Shown here one piece after another: positions 1 through 33,420 of a stretch of 64,000 nucleotides of DNA. Numbering within the stretch: the stretch's first letter is position 1; every line of letters starts with the position of its first letter. Location: contig JAQYLT010000006.1 in the NCBI GenBank assembly GCA_028719885.1, forward strand, positions 1 through 64,000, read 5' to 3'. A model generated the notes under the pieces. That model did no database searches, was not told the origin of the DNA, and saw only the letters and a list, made by a program, of their open reading frames with translations. This DNA is from Bacillota bacterium (GTDB lineage: Bacteria; Bacillota; Clostridia; Oscillospirales; Oscillospiraceae). Position numbers and translations under genes: made by a program.

Positions 1-110
1 AGGGCGCCTGGCTGTCCCCCGCCGAAACATGGCAAATATATGAGCATTTCCGTTAAAACGAACCCGGTTCATAACCTGGAGCAAGCGGCGGAGGCAAGCC
101 CCCGCCCTAC
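1..110. repeat. Truncated copy of a ~113-bp inverted-repeat element (REP/BIME-like); left end cut by the window edge
   Basis: Starts AGGGCGCCTGGCTGTCCCCCGCCG (GT of GTAG missing) and ends CGGCGGAGGCAAGCCCCCGCCCTAC; about 80 bp of the interior matches the reverse complement of 31955..32067 with one mismatch seen. Confidence 0.8.
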
Positions 111-2725: not shown

Positions 2726-3114
2726 GTAGGGAATGCATTTATGCATTCCGCCCTGGTCGCAAGTCCCCAGGGGTTATTGAATCGAAAAATGTTGTGTTTT
2801 GCGTAGGGAACGGATTTATCCGTTCCAAAAGGCTGATGAACATCCATGGTTCGTTGAACGGGGAATGGTCCGTACACACCCTTGGGAATGGGCTTGCTCA
2901 TTCCGTCGGCGAAGCCGCTTTTGCGGATGTTTTTATTATGAATTCGGCTGGATATTCGGATAACTTGACCCTTTTTCAAATAATTGGGTGCGGTAATTCC
3001 GCTTCGCGGTCGGAACGGATAAATCCGTTCCCTACGAAAAGAATCAACATTTTCTCATTCAAGGCACCGGCGCAAAACCATTACCCAGACGGAATGCATA
3101 AATGCATTCCCTAC
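2726..3114. repeat. REP/BIME-like cluster (hairpins 2730-2749, 2807-2826, 2885-2904, 3012-3031, 3091-3110)
   Basis: GTAG+GGAATGCATTTATGCATTCC; GTAG+GGAACGGATTTATCCGTTCC; inverse copies ending CTAC; includes 233-bp element 2803..3035. Confidence 0.9.
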
Positions 3115-7419: not shown

Positions 7420-7567
7420 GTAGGGAACGCATTCATGCGTTCCGAAAGATTGCTTCATTGGAATGGTTCGTTGGATGGTAATTGTAATGCATTTGGGGGG
7501 CGTTTACCCATTCAGCTTACCGATTTGAAAACAAACCTTAAGCGGAATGCATGAATGCATTCCCTAC
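7420..7567. repeat. REP/BIME-like element pair (148 bp)
   Basis: GTAG+GGAACGCATTCATGCGTTCC at 7420-7443 and inverse GGAATGCATGAATGCATTCC+CTAC at 7544-7567. Confidence 0.88.
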
Positions 7568-11628: not shown

Positions 11629-12837
11629 ATGAAATACGATTTTACCACCATTATGGACCGGCGGGGAATGGATGCCATTGCCATGGAGCAGCCGCCCCAA
11701 ATGCCCAGCAAGCCCGGCTTCGACCTGATTCCCATGTGGGTGGCGGACATGAATTTCGCCACGGTGCCCACGGTGGTGGATGCCATGATTCGCCGTGCCC
11801 AGCACCCGGCCTTCGGCTATTTTTCCCTGCGGCAGGAGTATTATGACGGAATCCTCCGCTGGCACAAAACCCATCACAATGTGGATTTAAAGCCGGAGTA
11901 CATCAGCTATGCCAACGGTGTGCTGGGCGGGGTGGTCAGCGCCTTGAATGTGCTGTGCTCCAAAGGAGACAATGTGCTGGTCCACGCTCCCACCTATGTG
12001 GGCTTCACCCACGCCCTTGGGGACAATGGCTACAACATCGTCCACTCCCCTCTCCGGCAGGACGCAGAGGGCGTGTGGCGGATGGACTATGCGGACATGG
12101 AGGAAAAGATCGTCCAGAACAAGATCCACGCCGCCATTCTCTGCTCCCCCCACAACCCCTGCGGCCGGGTGTGGGAGCGCTGGGAGCTGGAGCAGGCCAT
12201 GGAGCTGTTCCAAAAGCACGATGTCTACGTCATCTCCGACGAAATCTGGTCCGACCTGATCCTGGAGGGCTATAAGCACATCCCCACCCAGACCGTGAGC
12301 CAGGACGCCAAAATGCGGACCGTGGCCATGTACGCCCCCAGCAAAACCTTTAATCTGGCGGGCCTGGTGGGCAGCTACAGCGTCATCTACAATTCCTGGC
12401 TCCGGGACCGGGTGCAGAAGGAGGCCGGGCTCTGCCACTACAACGAGCCCAACGTCATGTCCATGTACGCCCTCATCGGCGCCTACCAGGACGAGGGCTA
12501 TGAATGGCTGACGGAGCTGCGACAGGTACTCACCGGCAACGTGGACTTTGCATGCCGGTATATTGCCGAGCACTTTGAGGGCGTAAAGGTCAGCCGTCCC
12601 CAGGGCACCTACATGCTCTTTGCCGACTGCACCGACTGGTGCAAAAAGCATGGCAAAACCATCGACGATGTGGAGCAGGCCGCCTGGGCGGTGGGCGTGG
12701 CCTTCCAGGACGGACGGGCCTTCCACGGGCCCTGCCATGTCCGCATCAACCTGGCTCTGCCCCTGTCCCGGGTGGAGGAGGCCTTCCGGCGGCTGGATAA
12801 ATATGTATTCAATCCGGAAGAGGAGACAGCGCCGTGA
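11629..12837 (+). CDS. MalY/PatB-family PLP-dependent aminotransferase (cystathionine beta-lyase-like)
   Basis: FDLIPMWVADMNFATVPTV, NPCGRVW, SDEIWSDLIL, APSKTFNLAGL PLP lysine motif. Confidence 0.93.
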   Translation: MKYDFTTIMDRRGMDAIAMEQPPQMPSKPGFDLIPMWVADMNFATVPTVVDAMIRRAQHPAFGYFSLRQEYYDGILRWHKTHHNVDLKPEYISYANGVLGGVVSALNVLCSKGDNVLVHAPTYVGFTHALGDNGYNIVHSPLRQDAEGVWRMDYADMEEKIVQNKIHAAILCSPHNPCGRVWERWELEQAMELFQKHDVYVISDEIWSDLILEGYKHIPTQTVSQDAKMRTVAMYAPSKTFNLAGLVGSYSVIYNSWLRDRVQKEAGLCHYNEPNVMSMYALIGAYQDEGYEWLTELRQVLTGNVDFACRYIAEHFEGVKVSRPQGTYMLFADCTDWCKKHGKTIDDVEQAAWAVGVAFQDGRAFHGPCHVRINLALPLSRVEEAFRRLDKYVFNPEEETAP

Positions 12838-14372
12838 CCCGGGAGGCCCAAATCAAACGGCTGCGCTTCATCGCGGTGTGGGTATTTGCCTTTGGGCTGG
12901 TATTCCACGGCTACTGCTATCTGAATGGGAATTTGTCCCACGACAGCCTATACTCCCTCTATGAGGAGAGCCCGGAGCTGATGATCTCCGTGGGCCGATT
13001 CCTCCGGCCGGTGTACCGGCTGATTCGGGGCAATTTCACCCTGCCGGTGATCAACGGCTTTCTCAGCCTGGTGTTTCTTACTCTGGCAGCCTACTTTATT
13101 CTGGATATCCTGGACATCCGCAGCAAGGGGCTCACCGTGCTCTCCTGCGGCATCCTGGTGGGCAACACCACCGTGGCGCTAACCAACGCCACCTTTCTCC
13201 ACGACGCGGACGCCTATGCCCTGGCCCTGGTGCTGGCGGTTTTGGGCGTCTGGCTGAGTCGGGAGGGAAAGGGGCGGTTCTGGCTGTCCACCCTGCTGTA
13301 TTTCTGCTCTCTGGGCATCTACCAGGCCTACATTGACTGCGCCATCTATCTGATTTTGATGCTGGCCCTGCTGGCGCTGCTGGACGGAGCCGGGGTGAAA
13401 AAGGTCTATGGCCAAGCCCTCCGGCGGCTGCTGGAGGTGGCCGCAGCCATGGTTTTGTATTTTCTCGCCACCAAGCTGGTGCCGGCCATCACCGGCATCC
13501 GGGCCAACCGGGGCTACAACACCGTTTATTCCCTGTCGGAGCTGGATTTCAAGAGCCTATGGGAGCGGGCCGTGAATTTCTTCCGGGCGGAGGCGGTGTG
13601 GTTCTACTCCCCCGAGGCAAGGCTCAACCGGCTGATCTTCGGGGTGAATGTGGTCTTTGTCCTGCTGGCCGCCTGGCTGATCATTGGAAAGCTGCGGCAG
13701 GACAAGCGGGGCAAAGGGGTGTGCTGGGCGGCAGCAGGCATTGTGGCTGCCATTCCCTTTGGCATGAACGCCATCACCCTGCTGTCCAACCTGTACCACG
13801 CCCTCACCATCTATTCTTTCTTCCTTTCCTACCTGCTGGTCTTTGCCCTGGCGGAGCGCTGCCCCAGATGGAAGCTCTCCGTAAAAAGCAGCCACCTTGC
13901 CCGGGGGCTCTGCGGCATTCTGGCGGCGGTGCTGCTGTTTGACAGCTGCATCTACGCTCAGGAAATCTACCTGGAAAAGGAAATGGTGTCGGACGCCACC
14001 TTGTCGCTGTTCACCCGGCTCATTGACCGGATGGAGCAGACCCCGGGCTATGTGGTAAACGAGACCCCCATTGCCATTGTGGGGCGGCTCAGGCTGTCCG
14101 GGCTGCAGACGGAGCGGGAGGGCATGCCCAGCCCCGCCAACGGCATGGGCTACAGCTATGCCACCACCTATTTTGAAACCTACGAGAAATACGTCAACTA
14201 CTATCTGGGCTATCCGGCGGTGTTCCTCCGGGGGCCCAGGCTGCTGGAGCTGGAGGAAACCCAGACCGTGCAGCAAATGCCGGAATTCCCCGCAGAGGGC
14301 AGCGTGCTCATGGTGGAGGATGTGCTGGTGGTGAAATTCTCCCAGCCCTTCCACGAGGCGGAAATCTGCTGA
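12834..14372 (+). CDS. GtrII-like glucosyltransferase-domain membrane protein, paralog 1
   Basis: GTG start overlapping upstream stop; NGNLSHDSLYSLYEESPE, GRFLRPVYRLIRGNFTLPVINGF, HDADAYALAL, GIYQAYIDCAIY, C-terminal VLVVKFSQP. Confidence 0.72.
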   Translation: MTREAQIKRLRFIAVWVFAFGLVFHGYCYLNGNLSHDSLYSLYEESPELMISVGRFLRPVYRLIRGNFTLPVINGFLSLVFLTLAAYFILDILDIRSKGLTVLSCGILVGNTTVALTNATFLHDADAYALALVLAVLGVWLSREGKGRFWLSTLLYFCSLGIYQAYIDCAIYLILMLALLALLDGAGVKKVYGQALRRLLEVAAAMVLYFLATKLVPAITGIRANRGYNTVYSLSELDFKSLWERAVNFFRAEAVWFYSPEARLNRLIFGVNVVFVLLAAWLIIGKLRQDKRGKGVCWAAAGIVAAIPFGMNAITLLSNLYHALTIYSFFLSYLLVFALAERCPRWKLSVKSSHLARGLCGILAAVLLFDSCIYAQEIYLEKEMVSDATLSLFTRLIDRMEQTPGYVVNETPIAIVGRLRLSGLQTEREGMPSPANGMGYSYATTYFETYEKYVNYYLGYPAVFLRGPRLLELEETQTVQQMPEFPAEGSVLMVEDVLVVKFSQPFHEAEIC

Positions 14373-14397
14373 ACATCCAAGAAAACGAGGTACAACT

Positions 14398-15957
14398 ATG
14401 TGTGAATCAACCTGTCGCCTGAAAAACCGGCTGGACCTGGAAAGGCTCAAATGGATCGCCCTGTGCATTTTCTGCTTTGGCCTGGTGGCCCACGGCTACT
14501 GCTTTTTCAACGCCAATTTCTCCCATGACATCCTCTGGGACCTCTATGAGGAAAGCCCCGACTCCATGGTGGGCATGGGCCGGTATCTCAGGCCGGTGTA
14601 CCGGCTGATTCGAGGCAATTTCACCCTGCCCGCCTTCAACGGCTTTTTGGAGCTGGCGTTCATGACCCTTTCTGCCTATGTGATCACCGGGCTGCTGGGC
14701 ATTCGCAGCAAGGCCCTGGTGCTGCTCACCTGCGGCGTGCTCATCACCAACAGCACCATGTCCTTGATGAACGCCACCTTCCTCCACGATGCGGATGCCT
14801 ACGGCTTCGCCCTGGTGATGGTGGTGCTGGGGGTGTGGACGGCGGTAAACCAAAAAAGAGGACTGCTGATTTCCGTCGGCTTCTTCTTTGTCTCCCTGGG
14901 CATCTACCAGGCCTACATCAACTGCGCCATCTATCTGTTTCTGATGCTGGCCCTGCTGGCACTGCTCCGGGGGGATTCCGTGAAGCAGGTTTACATCAAA
15001 ACCATTCAAAGAATGCTGGCCATCGCCGCCGCCATGGTGCTCTACTACATCGGCCATGTTCTTGTTCTGAAAATCACCGGCATTCCGGAAAACAGCGCCT
15101 ACAACACCATCACCGATGTGACCAAGGGCGGGCTTTGGGACCTTGTCTCCCGGCTGTATTACATGCTCCGGGCGGAGGCATTGTGGTTCCTGGAGCCCAG
15201 CAGCTACCGGGAATGGCTGGTGGGACTGGTCAATGTTCTGCTGCTGGCCCTGGCAGTGGTTTCCCTGGTGGCCCTGGGCCGGCAGGAAAAACTGAAAAAG
15301 GCCAGCTGGCTGGGCATCCTGGGTATCCTGATTGCCATGCCTTTTGGCATGAACGCGGTGGCTCTGCTGTCCGGCGTATCCCACAGCGTCACCATTTTCC
15401 CGTTCTTTCTCTCCTATCCGCTGGTGTTCGCCCTGGCAGAGCGGTACCTCCAATTGCCCCTTTCCCATCGCCGGAAGCTGGGAGCTCAGGCTGCCGCCTT
15501 CTGTCTCACGGGGCTGATGCTCTTTGACAACTGCCTGTATTCCAACACCGCCTATCTGAAAAAGCAGCTGGAGGCCGACGCCACCTTGTCGGTGTTCACC
15601 CGGGTGCTGGAGCGGATGGAGCAGACTCCGGGCTATGTGGTAAGCGAGACCCCGGTGGCCATCATCGGCAGCCTGTCCGACTCCCCCCTGAGCAAGGAGC
15701 GGGAGGGCTTCCCGGTGAACGGTCTGGGCCTCTACACCAACTACAGCACCACCTATCTGAACACCCACCGGAAATACATCAGCTATTATCTGGGCTATCC
15801 CGCCGTTTTGGCCGACAACAATCTCCAGTGGAAGATGGAGCACAACCAGCTGGTGCTGGACATGCCCCTATTCCCGGAGCAGGGCAGCATTCAAATGGTG
15901 GAGGGCACCATGGTGGTGAAATTCTCCCAGCCCTACATCGAAGAAGACGGAGCGTAA
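14398..15957 (+). CDS. GtrII-like glucosyltransferase-domain membrane protein, paralog 2
   Basis: Shares NFSHDILWDLYEESPDS, GRYLRPVYRLIRGNFTLPAFNGF, HDADAYGFAL, GIYQAYINCAIY, MVVKFSQP with neighbours. Confidence 0.72.
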   Translation: MCESTCRLKNRLDLERLKWIALCIFCFGLVAHGYCFFNANFSHDILWDLYEESPDSMVGMGRYLRPVYRLIRGNFTLPAFNGFLELAFMTLSAYVITGLLGIRSKALVLLTCGVLITNSTMSLMNATFLHDADAYGFALVMVVLGVWTAVNQKRGLLISVGFFFVSLGIYQAYINCAIYLFLMLALLALLRGDSVKQVYIKTIQRMLAIAAAMVLYYIGHVLVLKITGIPENSAYNTITDVTKGGLWDLVSRLYYMLRAEALWFLEPSSYREWLVGLVNVLLLALAVVSLVALGRQEKLKKASWLGILGILIAMPFGMNAVALLSGVSHSVTIFPFFLSYPLVFALAERYLQLPLSHRRKLGAQAAAFCLTGLMLFDNCLYSNTAYLKKQLEADATLSVFTRVLERMEQTPGYVVSETPVAIIGSLSDSPLSKEREGFPVNGLGLYTNYSTTYLNTHRKYISYYLGYPAVLADNNLQWKMEHNQLVLDMPLFPEQGSIQMVEGTMVVKFSQPYIEEDGA

Positions 15958-15988
15958 TGACACAAATTGGAATTTGTCAGGATGCTTC

Positions 15989-16211
15989 GTAGGGAACGGA
16001 TTTATCCGTTCCGAAAGGTCGGTGAACCTCCGTAGTTCGTTGGATGGTATTTCACGCGCGTTTTCGCATGTTTCCCCATTCAATCCACCAATTCGAAACA
16101 ATAAGGGGGCGGAATGCATGAATGCATTCCCTACGCAAAAACCATCGTTTTTCGATTCGTCGAACCCTGGTGGTTCATGGACCTTTCGGAATGCATGAAT
16201 GCATTCCCTAC
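15989..16211. repeat. REP/BIME-like cluster inside the Gtr paralog array (hairpins 15993-16012, 16111-16130, 16188-16207)
   Basis: GTAG+GGAACGGATTTATCCGTTCC followed by two inverse units ending CTAC. Confidence 0.88.
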
Positions 16212-16290
16212 GAAACGTCCCCGCAAACACCAATTTACCGCGATTTACAAGCGGTTTTGCACCGATCAAAACATCCAAGGAGCATTTTAT

Positions 16291-17844
16291 ATGACCAACG
16301 AGAACCAAGCGCTCCGCCCCGGGGTGGACCTGAAGCGTCTGAAATTCATCTTCCTCTGGGTCTTCGCCTTCGGCCTGGTGGCCCACGGCTTCTGCTATTT
16401 CAACGGAAATTTCTCCCACGACAGTCTACGCTCCATTTACGAACCAGGCCCCTACGCAATGATTGCCGCAGGCCGCTACTGCCGGGCGATCTACCGGCTG
16501 ATTCGGGGGAATTTCACCCTGCCGGTGATTAACGGCTTCCTGTTTCTCGTCTTTTTGTCCCTGGCTGTCTACCTGCTGACGGATTTGCTTCCCATCCGGA
16601 AAAAGGTCCTGCTCATCCTTGCCTGCGGCATTCTCACAGTCAACAGCACCGTCTCCCTGATGAACGCCACCTACCTCCACGATGCGGATGCCTACGGCTT
16701 TGCCCTGCTGATGGCGGTGCTGGGTGCCTGGGTCGCGGTGAAGCTTCCCTGGGGTGCGCTGCTCTCTATTCCGTTCTACACGGTTTCTCTGGGCATTTAC
16801 CAGGCATATATCAACGTGATAATTTACCTGTGGCTGTTTCTGGCGCTGATGGAGCTGCTGAAAGGAACCCGGGTGCGGCAGGTTTATGCCATGACCTTTC
16901 TGCGGATGCTGTCCATCGCCGGCGGAATGGTGCTGTACTTTGTGGGACATTTGGTGGTTCTCTGGGTCACGGGAATCGACGAAGACCAGGGCTACAACAC
17001 AGTAACAGTAGTGGCCCAAATGGGCTTGGCCGGTCTACTCCAGCAGCTTCGCGTCACCCTGGAAGCCGGATTGAGCTGGTTCCTACAGCCAAGAGGGAAT
17101 TCTCCCGGGATGATTCGCCTGCTCAACATTTTGCTCATTCCCGTGCTGGCATATTCCCTGGTTGTCCTGGGAAAGCGAAACCATGTGCGTCCGGCGGGCT
17201 GGCTGGGAATCCTCGGGATTCTGGCTGCTATCCCTCTGGGGATGAATGCAACCGTTCTTCTCTCCGGCAGTTATCACCATATCACCATTTACGCTTCCTT
17301 TTTCACCTATCTGGCAGCAATTGTCCTGGCAGAGCAATGTCTGCAGCTGCCAAATCCTGCCCGCTCTGCCAGGGCCGTGCAGCTTGGCTGCAGCATTCTG
17401 CTGGGCATTCTGGTGTTTGACAGCTGCCTTTATTCCAACACCATCTACCTGAAAAAAGAGCTGGAAAGCCAGCAGACCCTGTCGGTATTCACTCGCATCA
17501 TCAATCAAATGGAGCAAACCGACGGCTATGTTCTGGGAGAAACTCCCATCGTTCTTGTGGGTGCCACCACCGAATCCCCGCTGAATGTAAAACGGGAGGG
17601 CTTCGACTACGGTGCCACCGGCCTGTGGTGCAGTCTCACGCCCACCTACTATCCCATCCCCCAAACCTACATAAGCTACTATTTGGGCTATCCCGCCGTT
17701 TTTGGCGATGGGGTGGACCAGTGGCGGGTGTCGGTTTCGGAAGAAATGCTGGAAATGCCCCTGTTCCCGGAGCCCGGCAGTGTTCGCATGATTGATGGGA
17801 TTATGGTTGTCAAGCTCTCTCATCCCATCATTCCCGCAAGCTAA
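16291..17844 (+). CDS. GtrII-like glucosyltransferase-domain membrane protein, paralog 3
   Basis: Start at AAGGAGCATTTTATATGACC; N-terminal extension of ORF 16114 is REP sequence; same conserved blocks as paralogs 1, 2 and 4. Confidence 0.72.
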   Translation: MTNENQALRPGVDLKRLKFIFLWVFAFGLVAHGFCYFNGNFSHDSLRSIYEPGPYAMIAAGRYCRAIYRLIRGNFTLPVINGFLFLVFLSLAVYLLTDLLPIRKKVLLILACGILTVNSTVSLMNATYLHDADAYGFALLMAVLGAWVAVKLPWGALLSIPFYTVSLGIYQAYINVIIYLWLFLALMELLKGTRVRQVYAMTFLRMLSIAGGMVLYFVGHLVVLWVTGIDEDQGYNTVTVVAQMGLAGLLQQLRVTLEAGLSWFLQPRGNSPGMIRLLNILLIPVLAYSLVVLGKRNHVRPAGWLGILGILAAIPLGMNATVLLSGSYHHITIYASFFTYLAAIVLAEQCLQLPNPARSARAVQLGCSILLGILVFDSCLYSNTIYLKKELESQQTLSVFTRIINQMEQTDGYVLGETPIVLVGATTESPLNVKREGFDYGATGLWCSLTPTYYPIPQTYISYYLGYPAVFGDGVDQWRVSVSEEMLEMPLFPEPGSVRMIDGIMVVKLSHPIIPAS

Positions 17845-17869
17845 TCAAAACATCCAAGGAGCATTTTAT

Positions 17870-19426
17870 ATGACCAACAAGAACCAAGCGCTCCGCCCCG
17901 GGGTGGACCTGAAAAAACTGAAATTCATCTTCCTCTGGGTCTTCGCTTTCGGCCTGGTGGCCCACGGCTTCTGCTATTTTAACGGGAACTTCTCCCACGA
18001 CAGCCTGTTTTCCATCTACGAGGAAAGTCCGGACATCAACATCGCCGTGGGAAGATTCCTCCGGCCGGTGTACCGGATGCTCCGGGGCAATTTCGCCCTG
18101 CCGGTCATCAACGGCTTTTTGTCCCTGGTCTACCTGTCTCTGGCCATTTATCTGCTTTCCGACATTATGGAAATTCGCCGGAAAAACTTTCTGGCCCTGA
18201 CCTGCGGCCTGCTTTCCACCAATGTCACCTTTTCCCTGATGAACGCCACCTATTTCCACGATTCCGACGCCTACATGCTCTCCCTGCTGCTGGCGCTGGG
18301 AGGCGTTTGGGTGGCCCTGCGGCTGCGGCACGGGATTTGCTGGTCCGTGCTTTTCTACTTCTGCTCCCTGGGCATCTACCAGGCCTACATCGACGCAGCC
18401 ATCTATGTGTTTTTGATGCTGGCCCTGGTTCGGCTGCTGCAAGGGGAGCGGGTAAAGAGGGTGTATCTGGAGAGCCTGCAATATCTGCTGGCCATTGCTG
18501 CGGCCATGGTGCTGTATTACATCGGCATCAAGGTGACCCAGCATTTCGCCAACCTGTCCGACGGTGCCTACTATAACACCTTGTCCAACGTCACCGCCCT
18601 TTCCCTGGGCTCCGTCTTCCAGCGTCTGTTCACCTGCCTCTTTGCCGATGCCGCCTGGTTCCTGGTGCCCAGCGGCCACAGCATCCCGGTGGTAACGGTG
18701 GTGAATGTCCTGATGCTGCTGGCGGCGGTGTGGATGGTAATCGGGCTGATTCGGTTCCGCCATCTCCCCACTGCATCGGTTTTCGGCATTCTGGGGGTGC
18801 TGGCAGCCATTCCCTTTGGCATGAACGCCATCACCGTGATTTCCGATATGTACCACGCCCTCACCCTGTATGCGTTGTATTTTTCCTACGTGTGGGTGCT
18901 GGTGCTGGCGGAGCTGTATCTCGCCACCGGGAAGCCCGCCGCCCAAAGGGGAAAGCTGGCCTGCGCCATTCTGGCGGGCATCCTGATTTTCGACGGGTGC
19001 CTGTTCTCCAACGAGTCCTATCTGAAAAAGGAGCTGGAAAACTCCGCCACATTGTCGGTGTTCACCCGCATACTCAGCCGGATGGAGAGCACCCCGGGCT
19101 TTGTCCCCGGGCAGACCCGGGTGGCCTTTGTGGGACTGCTGCTGGACGGCCCCCTGTCCTACGGAAGCCCCGGCTTCTGCTACACCAACACCGGCATGGG
19201 CCACAGCTTCAACGTCTCCTATCACGACACCTACGAAACCTACCTGAGCTACTACCTGGGCTACCCCGTGGACTGCGTGGACAGCACGGAAATTATAGAA
19301 TATGAGCAGATGGAGCAGGTTACCGCCATGCCCCTCTTCCCCGCTGAGGGCAGCATTCAGATGATCGATGATGTGCTGGTGGTGAAATTCTCCCACATTC
19401 AGGAGGAAGAGGAAGCGGTGGAATAA
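17870..19426 (+). CDS. GtrII-like glucosyltransferase-domain membrane protein, paralog 4
   Basis: Start MTNKNQALRPGVDLKKLKF with the same RBS context as paralog 3; YEESPDINIAVGRFLRPVYRMLRGNFALPVINGF, HDSDAYMLSL. Confidence 0.72.
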   Translation: MTNKNQALRPGVDLKKLKFIFLWVFAFGLVAHGFCYFNGNFSHDSLFSIYEESPDINIAVGRFLRPVYRMLRGNFALPVINGFLSLVYLSLAIYLLSDIMEIRRKNFLALTCGLLSTNVTFSLMNATYFHDSDAYMLSLLLALGGVWVALRLRHGICWSVLFYFCSLGIYQAYIDAAIYVFLMLALVRLLQGERVKRVYLESLQYLLAIAAAMVLYYIGIKVTQHFANLSDGAYYNTLSNVTALSLGSVFQRLFTCLFADAAWFLVPSGHSIPVVTVVNVLMLLAAVWMVIGLIRFRHLPTASVFGILGVLAAIPFGMNAITVISDMYHALTLYALYFSYVWVLVLAELYLATGKPAAQRGKLACAILAGILIFDGCLFSNESYLKKELENSATLSVFTRILSRMESTPGFVPGQTRVAFVGLLLDGPLSYGSPGFCYTNTGMGHSFNVSYHDTYETYLSYYLGYPVDCVDSTEIIEYEQMEQVTAMPLFPAEGSIQMIDDVLVVKFSHIQEEEEAVE

Positions 19427-27277: not shown

Positions 27278-27588
27278 GTAGGGAACGGATTTATCCGTTC
27301 CGAAATGTGGATCACCATCCATGGTTCGTTGAACGGGGAATGGTCCGTACACACCCTTGGGAATGGGCTTGCTCATTCCGTCGGCGAAGCCTGTTTTTCG
27401 AATGTTTTTATCATGAATTCGGCTAGATATTCGGATAACTTTACCCTTTGTCAAATAATTGGGTGCGTTAATTCCGCTTCGCGGGCGGAACGGATAAATC
27501 CGTTCCCTACGCAAAACACAACGTTTTTTCGATTCAATAACCCCCGGTGATTTGCGACCAGGGCGGAATGCATGAATTCATTCCCTAC
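27278..27588. repeat. REP/BIME-like cluster (hairpins 27282-27301, 27487-27506, 27565-27584)
   Basis: Contains a 233-bp element 27278..27510 near-identical to 2803..3035, plus an inverse unit ending CTAC. Confidence 0.9.
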
Positions 27589-30928: not shown

Positions 30929-31771
30929 ATGGAAAAGATTCGCATTCTCACCGACTCCGGCTCGGACATCTGTGCACCGTTTCCCGAAAACCTCACCGTC
31001 ATTCCCCTGACCATCCACTTCGGCCCCGAGGAATACCGGGACGGTGAGACCATCGACCACAAAACCTTTTATGAAAAGCTCACTTCCGGCAGCGCGCTTC
31101 CCACCACCAGCCTGATTCCCCCGGGAGAATTTGAGCAGGCCTACAAAAAGGCCCAGGACGCCGGGGAGACGGTGATCGCCATTGTGCTCTCCAGCAAGCT
31201 CTCCGGCACCTACCAGAGCGCCGCCCTGGCCGCCGAGGGCTTCGACCATGTCTATGTGGTGGACAGCCTGAACGCCACCCTGGGAGAGCAGATTCTGGTG
31301 AAGTACGCGCTGCAGCTGGTGGAACGGGGCATGTCCGCCGCCGACATTGCCGCAGAGCTGGAGCGGGCCAAGTCCCATGTAAACCTGATGGGCCTGCCGG
31401 ATACGCTGGAATATCTCCACCGGGGAGGCCGGGTATCCAAGACCGTGGCGGTGCTGGGAGGTGCCCTCTCCATCAAGCCGGTGCTGCGGCTGGTGGACGG
31501 CGTGGTGGTGATGATCGGCAAGGCCCGGGGCTCCAAGAACGGCAACAACTACCTGATTCAGGAAGTGAACAAAAGCGGCGTGGATTTCTCCAAGCCCCTC
31601 TGCCTGGGCTACACCGGCCTGAGCGATGAGCTGTTGCAGCGCTACATTGCGGACAGCCGCCAGCTGTGGGAGGGCAAGGTGGATACGCTTCCCATCTCCA
31701 CCGTGGGCGCCACCATCGGCACCCATGTGGGCCCCGGCGCCATCGTCGTGGCGTTCTTCGACAACCAATAA
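30929..31771 (+). CDS. DegV-family (fatty-acid-binding, FakB-like) protein
   Basis: IRILTDSGSDIC, SGTYQSAALAA, VDSLNATLGEQ, HRGGRVSKT, GTHVGPGAIVVAFF. Confidence 0.92.
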   Translation: MEKIRILTDSGSDICAPFPENLTVIPLTIHFGPEEYRDGETIDHKTFYEKLTSGSALPTTSLIPPGEFEQAYKKAQDAGETVIAIVLSSKLSGTYQSAALAAEGFDHVYVVDSLNATLGEQILVKYALQLVERGMSAADIAAELERAKSHVNLMGLPDTLEYLHRGGRVSKTVAVLGGALSIKPVLRLVDGVVVMIGKARGSKNGNNYLIQEVNKSGVDFSKPLCLGYTGLSDELLQRYIADSRQLWEGKVDTLPISTVGATIGTHVGPGAIVVAFFDNQ

Positions 31772-31803: not shown

Positions 31804-31876
31804 AGAGAGATTCTGGTTTTTTTGCTTATCGGCTTGACTCAGTCTGTTGTCAAATTGGTGTTTGCAGAGATGTTTC

Positions 31877-32147
31877 GTAGGGAACGGATTAATCCGTTCC
31901 GAAACACCGGTGAACATCCGAGGCTCGTTGAATAGGAAATGGTCCGGCAACACCGTAGGGCTTATGGCTGTCCCCCGCCGCTTGCCCCAGGTTATGAACC
32001 GGGTTCGTTTTAACGGAAATGCTCATATATTTGCCATGTTTCGGCGGGGGACAGCCAGGCGCCCTACGGTGTTATCCAATATTTTTCCATTCAATATACC
32101 CCTAATAAAAACGTTACCGCGGCGGAACGGATAAATCCGTTCCCTAC
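31877..32147. repeat. REP/BIME-like element containing a nested 113-bp element (31955..32067)
   Basis: Outer hairpins GTAG+GGAACGGATTAATCCGTTCC and GGAACGGATAAATCCGTTCC+CTAC; inner element bounded by CACCGTAGGG...CCCTACGGTG. Confidence 0.88.
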
Positions 32148-32226
32148 GCACACATTGGAACATATCCCGTTCAACGAACCCTGCAAAATTCCAATTTGCG
32201 TTCATTCGAGGAGCACAATTCATTTT

Positions 32227-33420
32227 TCAATCCACTGTGATGCCGTCGATCTTCTGGCGGGTTTCGCCTTCCGCAGTACGGTAGCGCTCCATTTCAACGT
32301 CCACGATCTCTTCACCGGCTTCATTAAAATACACGCGCTGATAGCCCACAAAGAGGCCATCCTCTGTAAAGGAATAGCGCTTCTCCACAAAGGGAATTCC
32401 CTCGTAGAAGTTAGTGCTTTCTTTCACATGAATGATTCCAACCTGGTCTTTCCACACATCCGTGATGTCCGTGGGGCTGAACTGCACCGCATAGTACGCC
32501 CAGGAAGAAAAATCACCGGCGACCCAATTCGTTGGGGTTACGCTTCCGTTGTCGATTTCATAGCCCTTTCCGTCCCGGAGCAGCTTGCCGCGAGTGGCTT
32601 TGGTGGTGCCGTCGGATTTGTAGCGATAGGTGATCTCTTCGTAAAAATCGTTCCCGCTGCGCCAGATTTCGCCAACCAGCTCGTGACTGTCAGCGTCGAT
32701 ACGTCCATGGAACTCCTCGTTGCGAAGATATTGCCAGATTTTGATATCATAGTCGGTGGAATCGATCAGCTGTGCAACGCCCGTCTCACATTCTTTCAGA
32801 AGAACATCCATTTCCTGATTCCAAATCTGGAATTTGCAGTAGCAGGGCTGTGTCTCGGTTCTTCCATCTTCCATGGTAACGGTGTAGTACCGTCCCAAGC
32901 GATAATAACCCTCAGGCAGTGCTCCGTAGCTGTCTGACCAATCGATATCAAAGCTGTCCTTCTGCTCCCATGCAACGGAAATAGTTTTGCTTTCTGCAGG
33001 TGTGAAAGTAAAAGGCTCTTTCAGAAGTCTCCAGTTGCTCCCATCGAAGGTTTCTAACCAAAAGCCCTCTTCCACAGTAAAGGAAGCATGACCCTCTCCG
33101 GATTCTTCAAAGGTTTGCCGCAGGCCGGTGGGGGTCACAGCTTCGCTGCCAATGCGGACATGCCAGGTTTTCTCCAGAAATTCCCACTGTCTTGAAACCA
33201 GGCCCAGGGGAAACTCCCGGTCGTAGTCTGTCTGATTGCTGGGAATTTCCGGTGTAACCTTTACAATGGTACAATCTGTGCTGGACGAAAGCTGCAATTG
33301 GGTGCTTTCCTCCGGGAGCGGCCGAATTTCCCGGGTATCGTTTTGCAGACTGCTGCAGCCGGTGAGAAGACCCAGGCAGAGCGCAGCCAGAAGCAGAATG
33401 GGGCGATGAGATATGTTCAT
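32227..33420 (-). CDS. Hypothetical lipoprotein
   Basis: MNISHRPILLLAALCLGLLTGCSSLQN lipobox signal. Confidence 0.7.
   Translation of the reverse strand: MNISHRPILLLAALCLGLLTGCSSLQNDTREIRPLPEESTQLQLSSSTDCTIVKVTPEIPSNQTDYDREFPLGLVSRQWEFLEKTWHVRIGSEAVTPTGLRQTFEESGEGHASFTVEEGFWLETFDGSNWRLLKEPFTFTPAESKTISVAWEQKDSFDIDWSDSYGALPEGYYRLGRYYTVTMEDGRTETQPCYCKFQIWNQEMDVLLKECETGVAQLIDSTDYDIKIWQYLRNEEFHGRIDADSHELVGEIWRSGNDFYEEITYRYKSDGTTKATRGKLLRDGKGYEIDNGSVTPTNWVAGDFSSWAYYAVQFSPTDITDVWKDQVGIIHVKESTNFYEGIPFVEKRYSFTEDGLFVGYQRVYFNEAGEEIVDVEMERYRTAEGETRQKIDGITVD

Follow-up and report, generated by a model that had tools for sequence, protein, structure and literature searches.

The window analysed here, a stretch of 64,000 nucleotides from the genome of a gut bacterium of the Clostridia (Bacillota), carries at 31877–32147 an element bounded by GTAG and CTAC that encloses a second unit with the same boundaries. 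The question that this locus raises is whether the inner unit is a discrete module and, if so, how it came to lie where it does. Read directly, the outer element opens with the letters GTAGGGAACGGATTAATCCGTTCC and closes with GGAACGGATAAATCCGTTCCCTAC, while the inner unit spans 31955–32067 (113 nt, GTAGGGCTTATGGCTGTCCCCCGCC...GGCGGGGGACAGCCAGGCGCCCTAC) and has CAACACC as its left and GGTGTTA as its right neighbour. These coordinates and flanks, as well as the inverse copy of the inner unit at 1–110, had been given in a first-pass annotation of the same DNA, and all of them match the sequence. The palindrome at the locus reaches past the outer element, spanning 31852–32197 (AAATTGG...CCAATTT), and is intergenic, between a DegV-family gene ending at 31771 and a convergent, opposite-strand gene ending at 32227. 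The whole 346-nt stack folds into a single hairpin, and the arrangement is concentric, every opening repeat preceding every closing repeat. The parts are as follows.

31852..31876, +: outermost shell, left arm (AAATTGGTGTTTG...TTTC), recognised from the AAATTGGAATTTG-type motif beside CGTAGGG and from the layout
31877..31900, +: outer REP, left; GTAG plus the GGAACGGAT hairpin, family A
31901..31954, +: left arm of the host (54 nt); its final ~9 nt (GGCAACACC, 31946–31954) belong with the cargo and not with the host
31955..32067, +: REPIN-like inner unit of 113 nt (GTAG...CTAC), assigned to family B
31955..31979, +: left end of the inner unit, REP-type, a diverged form of GTAGGGCGGGGGCTTGCCCCCGCC
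32043..32067, -: right end of the inner unit, REP-type
32068..32123, +: right arm of the host (56 nt); its initial ~8 nt (GGTGTTAT) belong with the cargo
32124..32147, -: outer REP, right (GGAACGGATAAATCCGTTCCCTAC)
32148..32197, +: outermost shell, right arm, terminating AAATTCCAATTT
1..110, -: second copy of the inner unit, truncated by the contig start, in another host palindrome (GGTATGTACC...AAATTCCAATTT); 96% identity over 100 nt, the assembly breaking at the repeat

The ends of the outer element (family A) consist of GTAG and the perfect hairpin GGAACGGATTTATCCGTTCC, with the variants GGAATGCAT.. and GGAACGCAT.., whereas those of the inner unit (family B) run from GTAG plus GGCGGGGGCTTGCCCCCGCC. 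The family B stems are mutated in the window's inner copy and intact on one side at two other loci (L010 and L011). A third type, C (GTAGGGAATGGGCTTGCTCATTCC), begins in other hosts at the same position. The palindrome of 20–40 nt with GTAG at one end that characterises the GTAG REP superfamily is found in A and in the less mutated B copies. Two inverted REPs with a spacer, able to form a hairpin as in REPINs, are present in both families, with interiors of 96–103 nt (A) and 60–63 nt (B), and so is a high intergenic copy number. In the 2.86-Mb genome the inner unit matches at 39 places (100 to ~71% identity, many of them to one end only), the outer element minus its insert matches 115 stretches, ~40 of them essentially full length, and the window copies lie between predicted genes. 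A hairpin scan returned 27 GTAG-plus-hairpin units in the window and 1 in a block-shuffled copy. An Rfam scan of the window reported tRNAs only, with no known RNA family at the elements. As to the earlier label, REP/BIME, a classical BIME is not present, the order being nested and not tandem alternating. Nor is there the direct target-site duplication expected of a MITE of a DDE transposon: CAACACC and GGTGTTA are inverted and not direct repeats, and no direct repeat was seen by eye at other B copies. We read the locus as a REPIN nested within the tip of another REPIN, both being non-coding, GTAG-tagged REP dimers, with a probability of roughly two in three.

Around A or B elements, the outermost shell carries AAATTGGAATTTG and the inverse of this motif at its opposite ends, and a AAATTGGAATTTG-type motif adjoining CGTAGGG has 137 matches in the same genome. 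Within the window AAATTGGAATTTG is found at 148, 15964, 31852 and 59360, with a further arm (CATATCGGCTTGACTCAGC..) recurring beyond it, and in several species of the genus (L311–L321) it flanks REP elements of differing families.

The first-pass annotation regarded the locus as direct evidence of a discrete insertable module. The locus alone is insufficient for that, and it is the comparison between copies that carries the claim. Nests and insert-free elements are both found in the window, where "(" stands for an opening REP and ")" for a closing one:

2726..3114: nest A( A( type-C cargo )A )A
7420..7567: A REPIN without insert, 148 nt, for comparison
15989..16134: A REPIN without insert, with an extra right arm reaching 16211
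27278..27510: A element with type-C cargo, a 233-nt composite that recurs in the genome
59385..59687: nest A( A( )A )A, arms 54/53 nt

The outer element without its insert, which the annotation had proposed to look for, was found as 50 insert-free A elements in a non-redundant sample (at least 50, the count referring to the sampled part of the genome), so that outer copies do not all carry the same internal sequence, the finding it had named as fatal to its claim. The inner unit is also present in an unrelated host palindrome. The window B unit and a copy elsewhere in the genome (C69:40073, L002) are 95% identical over 113 nt while lying in different host palindromes, and identity ends 3 nt beyond GTAG/CTAC, that is, after ACC before GTAG and GGT after CTAC. 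Family B copies were seen in A hosts and in AAATTGG..GGTATACC hosts, and the arms of A hosts are found beside B, C or A cargo and also in elements that carry none. As judged from these sequences, the view of the inner unit as a discrete module, and not as an integral part of the outer element, is supported, and from the comparison of copies we infer an insertion event at this locus. An orthologous empty site was not available in relatives, in which the flanking DegV gene has only ~70–74% DNA identity and the intergenic region is unalignable.

As for the exact junction, the changeover between host and insert is found ~8–10 nt outside GTAG/CTAC and not at GTAG/CTAC. Host arms, compared by alignment with the halves of A elements that lack an insert, show high identity along the arm, which drops to background over the last 8–10 nt before GTAG. 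Since arm homology ends there, the exchanged unit comprises ~130 nt (roughly 31946–32075) and not 113. Filled and empty hosts differ in the 8–10 nt beside the insert, so that the sequences do not show insertion cleanly at GTAG. After the arm ...GTTGAATGGAAAAATGTTG three continuations were seen: GACAACACC followed by B, ATTCTTTTC followed by A, and an empty loop. Exchange takes place at GTAG too, as three B copies that carry A-type tails show. The nearest empty copies (L032 and L033; 93% identity to the outer element) read AACACCGTAGGGCTTATCCAAC and retain GTAGGGCTTAT, which belongs to the insert as its left end. Exactly this arrangement results when the DNA between a TTAT of the insert and the TTAT of GGTGTTATCC is deleted; these copies are scars and not virgin sites. 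Other remnants are kept at three further loci (L034, L035 and L036), and small deletions erode filled sites.

To describe nesting across the genome, opening and closing REPs were written as brackets in 113 distinct clusters, 50 of them with at least three REPs; these were drawn from sampled stretches, search matches and pattern searches, partly by looking for the elements themselves, so that the counts describe composition and not genome-wide density. The order ")(" is seen in 4 of the 50 larger clusters, against 30.5 expected at random orientation, and the minimum in 10,000 random draws was 16; related copies enter these statistics, in which independent events are not counted. The three REP families nest as strict brackets, up to three or four layers deep, with the cargo in the middle (tip) of the host hairpin. 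The distance from the host REP to the inner GTAG is 51–56 nt in 73 of the 77 arms (mean 53.99, sd 0.93), and a value of ~54 nt is common to the host/cargo pairs AA, AB, AC, BC and BB. Nests are one-sided in 34 cases and balanced in 12, so loss of arms is frequent; it probably takes place between GTAGGG direct repeats. The assembly is a draft of metagenome type, in which single mosaics may be misjoined.

A search with the pattern A-REP, 48–60 nt, GTAGGG returned 132 matches in the same genome. The same pattern is present in 4 of 135 other genomes of the genus, with 2–4 matches each, most of those listed being other arrangements (short REP pairs followed by GTAGG). With 132 matches against almost none in 135 genomes, dense regular stacking is specific to this lineage. 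Looser nests are present in one relative (G002), in another (G145, L317) a AAATTGGAATTTG shell encloses a stack of other REPs, and the AAATTGGAATTTG motif beside CGTAGGG occurs with other cargo in ten further genomes. In another species, a B-family REPIN (G047 C163, L321) has the same ACC/GGT flanks and a similar interior.

Nests also recur as whole elements. The 233-nt A–C composite is repeated, with ~18 near-full-length copies of the C stretch (88–100%), and the flanks vary among copies, meeting the element between C and GTAG on one side and between CTAC and G on the other. This composite is without one host arm, C replacing the arm and not forming a symmetric insert. Composites are multi-copy and bounded by the outermost GTAG/CTAC, and the best reading of these sequences is that they were amplified as units.

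We then turn to the enzymes that could have moved these elements. RAYT-like Y1 genes were found in 71 of 121 genomes of the genus by means of a separate RAYT alignment, as RAYTs score low with the PF01797 model; two full-length PF01797 matches (L162 and L164) were rejected as RAYTs, their sequences resembling ordinary IS200 transposases. The HUH motif (MPNHIH or MPDHIH) is conserved in the RAYTs, and GTAG hairpins lie near 30 of the 34 RAYT loci inspected. In the relative G002 (L287), a RAYT gene is flanked on both sides by GTAG plus GGAACGGATTTATCCGTTCC, the family-A REP, which makes the outer REP of the locus a RAYT terminal repeat in a sister species. A-type REPs were also seen at the RAYT loci L284 and L286, the genomes with such REPs at RAYT genes being G002, G113 and G017. 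A B-like REP (GGCGGGGGCTTGCTCCCGCC) lies near a RAYT in a single case (G100, L285). The assembly of the genome under study (96.5% complete) yielded no RAYT cognate to A or B; its RAYTs comprise one gene with an internal stop, which a third type of REP flanks and interrupts, together with two 3′ remnants. The family-A enzyme of this genome may have been lost, may be unassembled or may act from elsewhere.

Mobilisation of the class to which both REP dimers belong is attributed to RAYTs, which are single-strand transposases (HUH/Y1). RAYTs act on single-stranded REP substrates, cutting near the REP at CT or CA (PMC8266576). In the mechanism that we propose, REPINs would have entered the loop at the apex of older REPIN hairpins in a few founding events. 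This loop is the likeliest part of the hairpin to become single-stranded on folding of the lagging strand or of a cruciform, and HUH cleavage would be possible there. The position of the cargo is most simply accounted for if, during replication, one REPIN entered another at its exposed tip, and the constant 54 nt would derive from the half length of the host (interiors of 96–103 nt) plus a few nucleotides carried along. Composites would then have spread as units, and at a later stage arms would have been lost or swapped between GTAGGG direct repeats and some inserts deleted between short repeats. The sequences show the position of the cargo, its modularity, the copies of composites and the decay of filled sites. 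Transposition as such is not among the observations, the best reading of which is one of nested RAYT-related REPINs that were joined at the tip, multiplied in composite form and later eroded; insertion at the tip by a single-strand route is what we infer from them. A more general proposal, in which REPINs land preferentially at the hairpin tips of other REPINs, the host determines the distance and the concentric stacks spread as new, larger elements, is put forward tentatively, as the odds are on the whole against it.

It may also be that nesting happened only once or very few times in the ancestry of these elements and that everything else spread through amplification of composites and recombination between GTAGGG direct repeats, without the tip being a recurrent target, an explanation that we deem rather unlikely. 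It is consistent with the C composite being a clear single lineage, with the few tail types of the A-cargo joints (TGTGTTTTGC, GATTCTTTTC and TGATTTTTGC) and with the frequent one-sided loss of arms; joints between host arms and cargo come mostly from few lineages, and independent nesting events may be few. Several unrelated joints were nevertheless seen: B sits in A arms and in AAATTGG hosts, A in three or more types of arm, C in B and B in B. Wherever a REP element is the host, the distance is ~54 nt, and recombination alone does not explain an equal distance for different cargo families. As to how many founding events there were, the small set of tail types speaks for few and the variety of joints for more than one.

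The remaining explanations fare worse. The fact that the 346-nt stack folds into one hairpin would agree with an inner segment integral to one long element, an idea that is hardly credible because it is refuted by the 50 insert-free outer copies and by the inner unit in other hosts. Arms of different loci, when combined, look palindromic, as they would if insertion inversely copied flanking DNA (fold-back synthesis) and shells were made from outside sequence. Within a locus, however, the flanks of A elements are less complementary than random pairs (4.91 vs. 5.55 of 12; 0.2% of 2,000 permutations were as low, a fraction of 0.002), and fold-back duplication was therefore rejected as very improbable. 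The low complementarity may instead reflect selection against long perfect palindromes. Contigs do break within B copies (at the starts of C6 and C13), and single mosaics may be chimeric, as expected if a short-read metagenome assembler had joined repeats into false nests; yet 132 pattern matches and an arm-length sd below 1 nt are unlike random misjoins, and nests are mostly shorter than 400 bp, which leaves such an artefact with next to no likelihood.

It was already known that REP dimers are mobile units (PMC3116915) and that GTAG repeats occur also within palindromes (PMC3733652). With REPINs, our elements share two inverted GTAG-tagged REPs with a spacer, many intergenic copies and an association with RAYTs in the genus, but the ordered clusters described there are tandem (PMC3116915), whereas here they are concentric, with constant 54-nt arms, in a Clostridia host. 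The REP dimers of Anabaena variabilis GTAG-15 and T. roseum GTAG-23 are likewise central in a longer palindrome. In A. variabilis, REP-free target palindromes were not found (PMC3733652), while here insert-free hosts exist; as compared with GTAG-15 and GTAG-23, the host itself is here a REP dimer of another family. BIMEs are also mosaics of several REP types with differing spacers, in alternating REP order (PMC2817692) and not in the strict bracket nesting found here. IS elements that target REPs also place a mobile element inside a REP structure (PMC3733652, PMC3116915), with the difference that here the insert is itself a non-coding REP dimer. Firmicutes were not listed among the carrier phyla in the 2013 survey of GTAG repeats (PMC3733652), and no concentric REPIN stacks with a fixed arm length were met in the literature searched, in which coverage of subscription journals was slight. 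The choice of insertion sites by REPINs is poorly known, and a genome with more than 100 nests at one distance would preserve a natural record of how targets were chosen, how composites formed and how they decayed. The joint 8–10 nt outside GTAG predicts where the enzyme would cut.

Some further observations were made along the analysis. In two RAYT loci (1437–2149 of L031, G000 C19, and L260), copies of the gene's own REP (GGACACCC...GGGTGTCC) lie within and around the frame, and in the RAYT of the genome under study one internal copy terminates it (..SRIVGTPVPGCP, then the stop). Two other REP-bounded units (L289, G000 C78:123485, and L290, C77:4383) hold only the last ~69 RAYT residues and are possible intermediates between a REPtron and a REPIN. 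The density of GTAG hairpins differs within the genome, with 3 per 100 kb in positions 1–100000 of contig C76 (L177–L181) and 54 on C49; C76 may be a recent island or a misbinned contig, or the gradient may be real. In the window, 12834–19426 holds four consecutive tandem paralogous genes of ~510–580 aa, in which the repeat families D1, D2, D6 and D11 recur at a spacing of ~1.58–1.89 kb and with ~60–80% identity.
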